NCBI RefSeq assembly: GCF_001921215.1
Contig: NZ_MSIF01000001.1
Span: forward strand, 124,001 to 188,000
Origin: Actinophytocola xinjiangensis
Lineage (GTDB): Bacteria; Actinomycetota; Actinomycetes; Mycobacteriales; Pseudonocardiaceae
Direction: 5' to 3'
DNA: 64,000 nucleotides
Below the pieces are notes generated by a model that saw only the letters and a list, made by a program, of their open reading frames with translations, made no database searches and was not told the DNA's origin. The position numbers were made by a program, and so were the translations under genes. Below, one piece after another: positions 51,252 to 54,621 of the stretch (positions are counted from its first letter, which is position 1; every line of letters starts with the position of its first letter).

Positions 51252-51686
51252 ATGGCCCACGTGCACGCGTCGGTTCTGGTGCCGGCGTCCCCCGCGCGAA
51301 CGTGGGAGACGGCGGCGGACCTGTCCCGCTTCGGCGAATGGCTGACCCTGCACGACGGCTGGCGAAGCGACCTGCCCGACGAGTTGGGCGAGGGCACCAC
51401 GGTGACGTCGGTGGTGTCGGTGATGGGCCTGCGCAACCGCGTGGACTGGCGCATCGAGCGCTACGCCCCGCCCAAGGGCCTGCGCATCACCGGAACCGGT
51501 GTCGGCGGCGTCCGGATCTCGCTGAACCTGGCCGTGCGCCCCGACGGCACCGACCGGGCGACGGTCACCGTGGACGCCGAGGTGACCGGCGGCCCGGTCC
51601 TGGGCCCGATCGGTCTGGCCATCGGCCGCGCGCTGCGCGTCGACCTCCGCCGCTCGGTCGCCGCCCTCGCCGACCTTCTCAGCTGA
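51252..51686 (+). CDS. Rv0910-like SRPBCC protein (toxin family)
   Basis: A 144-residue START-like fold protein. The sequence AADLSRFGEWLTLHDGWRSDLPDELGEGTTVTSVVSVMGLRNRVDW and TGTGVGGVRISLNL, LGPIGLAIGRALRVDLRRSV correspond closely to M. tuberculosis Rv0910, annotated as a toxin of a type II pair with Rv0909. No Rv0909-like antitoxin is encoded next to it: upstream is the subtilase terminator and downstream the convergent SDR gene. It may be a housekeeping lipid-binding protein rather than a toxin. ATG 51252 is preceded by GGGAGG. Confidence 0.85.
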   Translation: MAHVHASVLVPASPARTWETAADLSRFGEWLTLHDGWRSDLPDELGEGTTVTSVVSVMGLRNRVDWRIERYAPPKGLRITGTGVGGVRISLNLAVRPDGTDRATVTVDAEVTGGPVLGPIGLAIGRALRVDLRRSVAALADLLS

Positions 51687-51708
51687 GCCGGCCCGCCGGG
51701 GTCGAGGG

Positions 51709-52473
51709 TCAGGACAGGCCGCCGGTGGCGAGCATGCCGCCGTCGACGCGGACGGTTTCGCCGGTGATCCAGGAGGCCTGGTCCGAGGCGAGGAAGGCGA
51801 CCAGCGCGGCGACGTCGGTGGGGGCGCCCAGGCGCTTCATCGGGTAGCCGGCGGCGGCGCGTTCCTCGTCGGCGTAGAGGGCCTCGGCGAACTTGGTCTT
51901 CACGACCGCCGGGGCGACGGCGTTGACCCGGACGCCGGGGCCCAGCTGCCAGGCCAGTTCCTCGGTCAGCCGGATCAGCGCGGCCTTGCTGGCGCCGTAG
52001 GCGGCGATCAGCCCGGAGGAGCGCAGGCCGGCCACCGACGCGATGTTCACGATCGACCCGCCGTGCTCGGCCATCCACGCCCGCAGCGCGAGCTGCACGT
52101 AGCCGAGCGCGGCGACCACGTTCACGTCGAAGATCTTGCGCACGGCGTTGAGGTCGGCGTCGGCCAGCGGACCGTAGGTCGGGTTGATGCCGGTGTTGTT
52201 GATCAGCACGTCCAGCGAGCCGAACTCCTCGACGGTCTGCCGCACGACCCGCTCGCGGTCCTCGTCGACGCCGGTGTTGGCCGGGATGGCCAGCACGCGC
52301 GCGCCGGGCACCAGGCCGCGCAGTTCCTCGCCGGCCGCCGCGATCTGGTCGGGCTTGCGGGAGGAGATCGTGACGGCCGCGCCGCCTCGGGCCAGCTCGG
52401 TCGCGATCGCGTGGCCAATGCCCCGGCTCGCGCCCGTGACCAGCGCGACCTTGCCCGTGAAGTCAGCAGTCAT
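51709..52473 (-). CDS. Short-chain dehydrogenase/reductase (FabG-like)
   Basis: A 254-residue NAD(P)-dependent oxidoreductase with the classical SDR motifs: VALVTGASRGIGHAIATEL (cofactor binding), LINNTGINPTYGPL, SIVNIASVAGLRSSGLIAAYGASKAAL with the catalytic Ser-Tyr-Lys (Ser in NIASVAG, YGASK), and ITGETVRVDGGM at the end. Substrate unknown; a 3-oxoacyl or similar ketone is likely. The gene has a leaderless promoter with a palindrome between its -35 and -10 regions, typical of TetR control, but no regulator is adjacent. Confidence 0.93.
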   Translation of the reverse strand: MTADFTGKVALVTGASRGIGHAIATELARGGAAVTISSRKPDQIAAAGEELRGLVPGARVLAIPANTGVDEDRERVVRQTVEEFGSLDVLINNTGINPTYGPLADADLNAVRKIFDVNVVAALGYVQLALRAWMAEHGGSIVNIASVAGLRSSGLIAAYGASKAALIRLTEELAWQLGPGVRVNAVAPAVVKTKFAEALYADEERAAAGYPMKRLGAPTDVAALVAFLASDQASWITGETVRVDGGMLATGGLS

Positions 52474-52479
52474 GGGCAG

Positions 52480-52502
52480 ACTCTAGCTAAGCGGGTGCTT
52501 AG
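52480..52502 (-). promoter_or_regulatory. Leaderless promoter and putative TetR-type operator of the SDR gene
   Basis: Read on the minus strand, TAGAGT (52485-52480) lies six bases before the ATG of the SDR gene. Directly upstream is the palindrome CTAAGC-GGGT-GCTTAG (52487-52502, plus-strand reading), of the AAGCnnnnGCTT kind seen in front of actinobacterial fatty-acid catabolism genes under TetR regulators. Confidence 0.5.
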
Positions 52503-52539
52503 TGCACGAGTGGCCGGCAAACCGGTTGCCGAGCACCCG

Positions 52540-52608
52540 TACACTCGGGGACGTGGTGGTTCGGACTGCCTAGGCGGCAGGCGAGCCCGCCGGCCACGGC
52601 CGGTGGGC
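52540..52608 (+). promoter_or_regulatory. Putative ribosome-mediated attenuator upstream of the ABC-F gene
   Basis: A -10-like TACACT (52540-52545) is followed after seven bases by a GTG that opens a six-codon frame (52553-52573). Twelve bases behind its stop begins a 9-bp hairpin with one G-U pair: arm GCCCGCCGG (52585-52593), loop CCACGG hexamer region, arm CCGGTGGGC (52600-52608). ABC-F antibiotic-resistance genes are often controlled by such leader-peptide/hairpin attenuators that respond to stalled ribosomes. Confidence 0.55.
52553..52573 (+). CDS. Leader peptide (six-codon uORF) of the ABC-F gene
   Basis: GTG GTG GTT CGG ACT GCC TAG encodes Met-Val-Val-Arg-Thr-Ala. It starts seven bases behind a TANNNT -10 element, so it would be the first translated codon of a leaderless transcript. 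It ends 11 bases before the attenuator-like hairpin. Too short for normal gene finding; supported only by position and context. Confidence 0.4.
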   Translation: MVVRTA

Positions 52609-52651
52609 GGCCAAGCCCTGCCCACGACCACTATCCCGGAGTCTCCGAAAC

Positions 52652-54280
<1,629 letters not shown>

Positions 54281-54411
54281 CGCGCCACGGACAGGTTCGC
54301 GAGTTCGTAGCTATTTTCGATCTCACCTGGCATTCCACGCCTCAGTGTTCGATCATTGCGAAGGCAGGTGTATCAGAAACCTCCGTCACCACGCTACGGA
54401 AGGCGGACGAC

Positions 54412-54621
54412 GTGGCTGATCTGAAGAAGGGCGCGCGGATCACCGGTACTACGCGCGACAAGCTGGCCGCTGACCTCAAGAAGAAATACGAGAAGGGCGC
54501 CAGCATTCGTGCGCTGGCCGAGTCGACGGGCCGGTCCTACGGATTCGTGCACAGGGTTCTCTCGGAATCCGGTGTGACGCTCCGCGGCCGTGGCGGCGCG
54601 ACGCGCACGAAGAAGAAGTAA
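54412..54621 (+). CDS. Small actinobacterial helix-turn-helix protein
   Basis: A 69-residue very basic protein: DLKKGARITGTTRDKLAADLKKKYEKGASIRALAESTGRSYGFVHRVLSESGVTLRGRGGATR carries a Lys-rich N-terminus, a helix-turn-helix (SIRALAESTGRSYGFVHRVL, about 31-50) and an Arg/Lys tail (RGRGGATRTKKK). Proteins of this exact build are widespread in actinobacteria and are probably DNA-binding or nucleoid-associated. The GTG start is preceded by GGAAGG. It is not the antitoxin of the nearby Rv0910-like protein as far as can be seen. Confidence 0.85.
   Translation: MADLKKGARITGTTRDKLAADLKKKYEKGASIRALAESTGRSYGFVHRVLSESGVTLRGRGGATRTKKK

Follow-up and report, generated by a model that had tools for sequence, protein, structure and literature searches.

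Proposed regulation of an ABC-F gene by its leader

How might the leader of an ABC-F gene in Actinophytocola xinjiangensis control the gene that it precedes, and what would the six-codon reading frame at its 5' end contribute? The gene lies in a 64-kb stretch of DNA (64,000 nucleotides of contig NZ_MSIF01000001.1, hereafter the window). An earlier note on this sequence proposed that the frame is a leaderless upstream open reading frame (uORF), and that the uORF and a GC-rich hairpin form an attenuator through which a ribosome-targeting antibiotic induces the gene. Every element of the layout on which that proposal was built is present in the sequence, all on the plus strand: TACACT, 7 nt, the GTG-initiated six-codon frame closed by TAG (GTG GTG GTT CGG ACT GCC TAG, 52553-52573), 11 nt, the hairpin, 43 nt, and the ABC-F start codon ATG at 52652. 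When both strands of the 64-kb window were searched for TANNNT followed by 6 or 7 nt, RTG, 3-9 codons and a stop, the uORF site was the single occurrence. A simple sigma-70 scan found no promoter in 51500-54500, and Rfam returned no match up to E 10 for the 401 bases around the leader. The features used throughout are listed here.

52517..52528, plus strand: promoter box GCAAACCGGTTG, from logos of 38 + 36 leaders aligned on the -10 element
52540..52545, plus strand: -10 element TACACT, read from the sequence; relatives carry TANNNT 6-7 nt before the uORF start
52553..52573, plus strand: predicted leaderless uORF GTGGTGGTTCGGACTGCCTAG, M-V-V-R-T-A-stop; position, frame and stop conserved, with a synonymous excess in the family
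52553..52560, plus strand: 5' strand of helix P1, nt 1-8 of the predicted transcript; over 42 genera, pairing within a genus is better than pairing across genera, not for the window leader alone
52576..52581, plus strand: 5' strand of helix P2, GGCAGG, from inverted repeat I16; 63.1% of cells paired in 22 leaders
52585..52608, plus strand: P3, a GC-rich hairpin without a U-tract; 9/10 pairs with two-sided changes (22 leaders), no terminator-like site
52617..52622, plus strand: 3' strand of P2, CCTGCC, from inverted repeat I16, inside a CCTGCCC motif that recurs in related leaders
52624..52631, plus strand: 3' strand of P1 in the family-common register, ACGACCAC, with 7/8 pairs, 6 nt upstream of the Shine-Dalgarno (SD) sequence; from the sequence and its relatives
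52627..52634, plus strand: 3' strand of P1 in a second register, ACCACTAT, with 8/8 pairs including two G-U, 3 nt upstream of the SD; the best contiguous helix for the window leader
52638..52641, plus strand: SD sequence GGAG of the ABC-F gene, read from the sequence, ending 10 nt before the ATG
52652..54280, plus strand: ABC-F protein, 542 aa, OcrA/Rv1473-type, from a 60/60 match in the first genome sample, NCBIfam and a structure search

Two further elements border this arrangement. Between the divergent SDR gene (51709-52473, minus strand) and the ABC-F promoter lies a palindrome, CTAAGC-N4-GCTTAG (52487-52502), which we take to resemble a TetR-type operator; by eye, it is also present in L002-L005, which make up 4/5 of the other Actinophytocola leaders, and in L010 with a single change. 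Immediately after the ABC-F gene, at 54412-54621, a small HTH_58 protein (Pfam PF19575) is encoded.

The ABC-F gene and its family

Strong matches to the ABC-F protein were present in 60/60 genomes of the first sample, 150/150 of the family sample and 207/216 of the class sample, and a few genomes carry a second copy. Its best NCBIfam model is that of ribosomal protection-like ABC-F proteins, with a score (350.8 bits) below the model cut-off of 380, and among solved structures PoxtA was the top-scoring resistance ABC-F, behind YheS. The closest named matches come from Actinophytocola (A. xanthii, A. gossypii, A. oryzae, A. algeriensis and a MAG), with best segments 88-94% identical, and records named Mycobacterium match at 77-78% identity over the best segment. 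From these identities we assign the protein to the actinobacterial OcrA/Rv1473 type, and the window gene is probably the ortholog of Rv1473 itself. OcrA has been tied to oxazolidinone (linezolid) and chloramphenicol resistance, as regards the mycobacterial protein only (PMC9159947), and a title cited in the same source has Rv1473 regulated by WhiB7. In the open-licence PMC literature searched, we found no description of leader control of OcrA-type ABC-F genes, and the word uORF is absent from PMC12633451.

Conservation of the uORF

The earlier note had held that a uORF lacking from relatives would speak against its reading; the uORF proved to be conserved far beyond Actinophytocola. A uORF of 3-9 codons is present at 167/253 ortholog loci in 20/40 families of the class (189/253 loci when frames of up to 40 codons are counted), against a mean of 1.4 loci (max 4) and 1.05 families (max 3) over 20 shuffles of the same 253 upstream regions, and the pattern appears in 0/253 of these regions when they are reverse-complemented. 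The 253 loci come from 133 of 150 family genomes, with 21 loci of the order, 69 of the class, drawn from 207 genomes with a match, and 30 presumed Streptomyces, these being the best 30 (60/61 genomes match); L034, L038 and L047, which are from the same genomes as L160, L164 and L177, and the paralogs L061 and L062 were left out. The labels presumed Streptomyces (g87) and Mycobacteriaceae-type (f8) are ours, assigned tentatively with the help of sequence identity.

Within the window's own family, the Pseudonocardiaceae, 98/133 loci carry a frame of 3-9 codons and 119/133 one of up to 40, and in presumed Streptomyces the uORF is found in 36/36 leaders read. The short uORF is absent from 86/253 loci, from 20/40 families and from 16/16 Mycobacteriaceae-type loci. 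The window gene resembles OcrA/Rv1473 of M. tuberculosis and MAB_2736c of M. abscessus in encoding an OcrA-type ABC-F but differs in its leader, the short leaderless uORF being found at 0/16 Mycobacteriaceae-type loci. Among loci with named records, 39/76 carry a frame of 3-40 codons; the genera that have it include Actinophytocola, Amycolatopsis, Saccharothrix, Pseudonocardia, Actinokineospora, Prauserella and Saccharomonospora, and it is absent in the Mycobacterium, Gordonia, Kibdelosporangium and Clavibacter records.

Spacing and frame are preserved together with the uORF itself. In a set of 159 upstream regions (133 from the window's family, and including the paralogs L061 and L062), the pattern TANNNT-N6/7-RTG with 3-8 codons occurs in 111, compared with a mean of 0.56 (max 3) in 50 dinucleotide-preserving shuffles. 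When 136 start codons were anchored by the promoter pattern alone, a stop followed within 7 codons in frame in 110 cases versus 46 and 6 in the other two frames.

Some leaders depart from the common form. Longer leaderless-type uORFs of 17-28 codons occur in L022, L027, L102, L111, L114-L116, L131, L132, L137, L139 and L145; they have the same GTGGT start and, by eye, many are Arg-rich. In genus g28 (L011, L066, L068, L069, L077), a 14-codon frame of the type MVATACHPSMEPYW-stop overlaps the ABC-F start codon, and in L011 it begins 8 nt after its -10 element (both by eye), an overlap that looks like a different, coupling-like solution.

Promoter and predicted transcription start

In the window and its relatives, the start codon of the uORF lies 6 or 7 nt after TANNNT, a spacing from which we infer that transcription would begin at the uORF GTG itself. 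Promoters activated by WblC have their starts 7 or 8 bp downstream of the -10 element (PMC7157823). Upstream, Pseudonocardiaceae and presumed Streptomyces (38 + 36 leaders) have in common a promoter box with the consensus GAAA(A/T)(C/T)C-N2-T-N-G, at about -23..-12 from the -10 element, which was not seen in 34 leaders of other families.

The published WblC consensus reads GAAAWY-N3-TKGMNN, 16-19 bp, TANNNT (PMC7157823). A promoter of this WhiB7/WblC type was considered for the leader: the composite box (52517-52545) is similar, but it stands 8 bp from the -10 element versus the published 16-19 bp. WhiB7 control of the leader is possible, and the geometry does not support it. In the same genome, L341, a putative whiB7-like gene named for its AT-hook, has by eye a box about 18 bp from a TANNNT.

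Coding evidence in the uORF

The peptides of Pseudonocardiaceae uORFs (MVVRTA/D, MVVRLE, MVILIE, MDVQLE and similar) are distinct from those of presumed Streptomyces (MAILLAH, MAFLLVH, MANLLAD). Among 41 distinct 6-codon uORFs of Pseudonocardiaceae there are 23 synonymous and 21 nonsynonymous distinct codon changes. With kappa set from 1 to 5, between 12.6 and 14.9 synonymous changes would be expected, and z runs from 3.6 to 2.6, the changes being linked by phylogeny; a narrower count gives 21 synonymous and 17 nonsynonymous changes versus 11.0 and 27.0 expected. These excesses support selection at the level of the peptide in the window's family. In the uORF of presumed Streptomyces, with 7 synonymous and 13 nonsynonymous changes, purifying selection is not significant (z 1.1 to 0.5). 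By eye, the ends of the peptides are alike within several clades, being R-T-(A/D/S/C/P)-stop or (L/I)-E-stop. Both the synonymous excess and the conservation of the frame suggest that the uORF may be translated.

Hairpins of the leader

The hairpin P3 forms 10 bp with a 4-nt loop in the predicted fold and was returned by the inverted-repeat search with 11-nt arms that are 91% complementary. Across 22 leaders, 9/10 of its pairs are changed on both sides and 93.6% are paired, and this covariation strongly supports P3 as a real hairpin. The P2 helix, with 63.1% paired, is weakly supported. (This alignment, A2, holds 22 and alignment A3 12 of 43 related leaders; A1 comprises the 36 presumed-Streptomyces leaders minus 4 long ones.) The motif around the 3' strand of P2, CCTGCCC or CTGTCC (window 52617-52623), lies about 30 nt before the ABC-F start and, by eye, recurs in related leaders even without its P2 partner.

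The earlier note had made the GC-rich hairpin part of an attenuator; as a terminator it does not look convincing. No terminator-like site was found in the window leader, and a U-tract after a perfect GC stem occurs in only 4/120 family leaders, imperfect stems not being counted. Because P3 covaries but is without a U-tract, an intrinsic terminator at this position is unlikely, and we rejected it for most leaders. One clade (L102, L111) has a hairpin followed by TTTTT; further g68 leaders (L114-L116), outside the 4/120 count, have by eye T-rich or weaker tails after an imperfect stem.

Predicted pairing of the uORF with the ribosome-binding region

The comparatively supported interaction at the ribosome site of the ABC-F gene is, in place of a terminator hairpin, one between the 5' end of the uORF and the ribosome-binding site (RBS) region. 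It is clearest in presumed Streptomyces, where the helix joins AUGG of the uORF to CCGU, a sequence that takes in the A and U of the start codon; it continues into the spacer, then brings CUCC onto the SD GGAG, followed by GCG opposite CGC. When windows of the 5' end were scanned against windows of the RBS (170 cells; pairings between leaders served as control), the strongest signal was that of nt 5-14 against -12..-1 (z -6.3). In 32 leaders, 96.6% of cells are paired versus 92.1% in shuffles, 15 cells have two-sided changes versus 6.0, and the covariation is 0.155 versus 0.094, none of these values being reached in 500 shuffles (0/500 each); slid versions of the helix give at most 0.050. Two further measures, a count of pairs with two-sided changes and a count of pair types, are not above shuffles (227 and 215 of 500). 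The main covarying pair joins uORF and spacer (C-G 16 / A-U 11).

When the first 15 nt of these leaders are covered, the predicted probability that the SD is unpaired rises from 0.02 to 0.19, and the cost of opening falls from 14.0 to 10.1 kcal/mol for -25..+12 and from 10.7 to 6.5 kcal/mol for -14..+6. Because covering any strand tends to lower the opening cost, 5' ends were swapped between relatives as a control: with its native 5' end the site is more tightly closed than with a swapped one, by 0.78 kcal/mol (t 5.1, 29/36). In presumed Streptomyces, we can say firmly on the basis of these comparisons and folds that the uORF strand is predicted to pair with SD, spacer and start codon, and to free the site when covered. 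In other families, predicted SD accessibility rises from 0.26 to 0.37 with the 5' end covered, and native 5' ends again close the site more tightly than swapped ones, by 1.22 kcal/mol (t 3.4, 23/32).

In Pseudonocardiaceae the pairing is displaced. The scan (170 cells, compared with between-genus pairings) has its maximum at nt 1-10 against -28..-17 (z -5.1). Averaged across 42 genera, the duplex of the 5' end with the last 48 nt of its native leader has -12.0 kcal/mol, versus -10.9 when these 48 nt are taken from other genera (2/20000 permutations), and the longest contiguous helix is 6.17 versus 5.80 cross-genus (50/20000 permutations). Paired changes are found, such as GUGAUCG/CGAUCAC (L016) and GUGGAGA/UCUCCAC (L009) beside the common GUGGUCG/CGACCAC. 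On 12 aligned leaders, P1 is little above shuffles, its pairing being reached by 51/500 and its covariation score by 33/500.

The window leader itself follows this arrangement in that nt 1-8 of its predicted transcript are able to form a helix with the sequence immediately before the SD. Its own 5'-RBS duplex, at -12.4 kcal/mol, is not better than the cross-genus mean of -13.1, and the minimum-energy fold has the 5' end paired not with the pre-SD bases but near the ABC-F start codon, with 52644-52648 and 52658-52665. A separate candidate, the pairing of TGGTTCGGA (52557-52565) with TCCGAAACA (52644-52652) from inverted repeat I6, was rejected, as by eye it is not kept in all Actinophytocola leaders.

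Predicted SD accessibility in Pseudonocardiaceae does not rise with the 5' end covered (0.30 to 0.29, or 0.24 to 0.22 with one leader per genus). Because it stays flat, direct sequestration of the SD was rejected for the window's family and is not claimed there. Covering the first 15 nt lowers the opening cost of -25..+12 from 13.7 to 11.5 kcal/mol in the family and from 12.3 to 8.1 kcal/mol in the window leader; in L003, one of six Actinophytocola leaders, it hardly changes, and the family cost for -14..+6 barely falls (6.9 to 6.7 kcal/mol). Native 5' ends exceed swapped ones by 0.83 kcal/mol (t 2.0, 21/31 genera) in Pseudonocardiaceae, where this control is weak. Taken over 42 genera, the statistics support a pairing just upstream of the SD in the window's family, of which the window's own pair is an unexceptional member.

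Paralogous ABC-F genes

A paralog with 62-63% identity is found in presumed Streptomyces and in two Pseudonocardiaceae genomes, and a leaderless-type uORF precedes it at 10/10 loci read (L061, L062, L343-L350), encoding MSTPR(I/V)S, MALPRIS or MSASRIY. Three other second copies (L351-L353), 68-79% identical, are without a uORF, the sequence of L352 being incomplete. The helix between the paralog uORF and its SD covaries (0.209 vs 0.154; 0/500 shuffles); the pairs changed on both sides and the pair types are not above shuffles (309 and 485 of 500), and the predicted opening of the SD is unchanged with the 5' end covered (0.24 to 0.22).

A proposed switch at the 5' end of the transcript

We consider it somewhat probable that the leader is a translation-attenuation switch for the ABC-F gene, operated by the leaderless uORF. 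The transcript would begin at the uORF GTG, and ribosomes would load on this 5' end without an SD and read six codons. During normal translation the uORF would be cleared, and its first codons would pair just upstream of the ABC-F RBS (in other clades, over the RBS), a pairing backed by covariation that may lower initiation at the ABC-F gene. A ribosome-targeting antibiotic would hold the ribosome on the uORF, masking the 5' strand, leaving the RBS region accessible and allowing the ABC-F protein to be made. The start codon and its neighbouring codons belong to the pairing strand, so that arrest as early as these first codons would suffice; the similarity of the last residues of the peptide within clades makes a peptide-specific arrest near the stop codon also possible. 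For the window's own leader, this model is tentative. What stands of the drug attenuator proposed by the earlier note is the conserved short uORF in a leaderless position, the protection-type ABC-F and RNA structure at the ribosome site; the GC-rich hairpin is unlikely to be of terminator type.

Control could instead be exerted on transcription, with P3 or a Rho-dependent site in the leader stopping RNA polymerase unless a ribosome stalled on the uORF alters the folding or coverage of the RNA. Several of the ABC-F uORF systems described act at this level (PMC12421871; PMC10314930), P3 covaries strongly, and one clade has its hairpin followed by TTTTT. However, the window leader has no terminator-like site, the U-tract after a perfect GC stem is confined to the 4/120 leaders, and the 3' strand of P1 lies beyond P3, hence it is made only once P3 has been passed; we therefore regard this explanation as unlikely. 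An improbable reading makes the uORF a constitutive damper, or a re-initiation or coupling device, that fixes a low level of ABC-F with no sensing of drugs. The g28 frame that overlaps the ABC-F start would suit coupling, but most leaders outside g28 have about 50-120 nt between the end of the uORF and the ABC-F start, far for simple coupling, and the covarying pairing with the RBS would be left without a role. That the 5' pairing merely protects or hides the end of the mRNA, for stability, and that the short frame is a by-product of a GUGGUC or AUGG 5' end, seems to us very improbable: most of the 42 genera do have a best P1 helix that starts with nt 1 of the predicted transcript, as this explanation would have it, but the excess of in-frame stops (110/136 vs 46 and 6) and of synonymous changes points to translation.

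Returning to the translational switch, we regard as plausible, though short of probable, an extension to the Actinomycetia as a whole, in which such leaders would be a class-wide set of SD-less sensors. The transcript would start at the start codon of the uORF, whose first codons would act as the sensor and, by pairing, also close the ABC-F RBS. An arrested ribosome sitting on the 5' end would be the signal, whatever the peptide, with peptide-specific arrest added in some clades. Two paralogous ABC-F families would be governed in this way through unrelated uORF sequences, and the design would then outlast any single peptide.

Relation to known leaders

Two other kinds of actinobacterial leader bear comparison. 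The mycobacterial cysteine operons reportedly have leaderless regulatory polycysteine uORFs (said to be the subject of Canestrari et al. 2020), which are alike in being leaderless regulatory short ORFs in an actinobacterium; the window uORF (MVVRTA) differs in that it has no run of cysteine codons and precedes another target gene. The whiB7/wblC leader, reportedly treated by Lee et al. 2022, likewise places an actinobacterial antibiotic-response gene under uORF control, but there the uORF governs the regulator, whereas that of the window precedes an ABC-F gene. The earlier note called the leaderless form little described. This holds for ABC-F genes, since the open-licence PMC literature yielded no publication that describes one of them with a leaderless uORF, subscription journals lying mostly outside the search; it does not hold for leaderless regulatory uORFs as such, of which the polycysteine uORFs are known examples.

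The attenuators of the resistance ABC-F genes vmlR, cplR, msrD, are5sc and tiaA resemble the window leader in having a very short uORF before the ABC-F gene and RNA structure over the ribosome site. For cplR, translational attenuation has been shown together with transcriptional attenuation (PMC10201436). Lincosamides, streptogramin A and pleuromutilin stall the ribosome at the start codon of the 3-codon uORF of Streptomyces are5sc, and a start-codon arrest by the same drugs has also been shown for the tiaA uORF (PMC12421871); erythromycin stalls it at the stop codon of the 6-codon MYLIFM uORF of msrD (PMC10314930). By analogy, either a start-codon arrest of the are5sc and tiaA kind or a stop-codon arrest of the msrD kind would serve in the window leader. 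The window leader differs in that its uORF is placed as leaderless and that the first codons of the uORF would themselves be the anti-RBS strand. The search tool uORF4u, used for cplR and are5sc, includes a search for an SD within 20 nt upstream of each candidate (PMC10219788), and leaderless uORFs may for this reason have been passed over.

ABC-F uORF attenuators as such are already known; what is new here is a leaderless uORF that would itself be the anti-RBS strand. OcrA-type ABC-F proteins are common across actinobacteria and are a resistance factor in mycobacteria. The layout found before the gene of A. xinjiangensis and its relatives would make it possible to test cleanly whether ribosome arrest on a leaderless message can serve as the signal, and the presumed-Streptomyces leaders, through their compensatory changes, mark the base pairs suited to testing.
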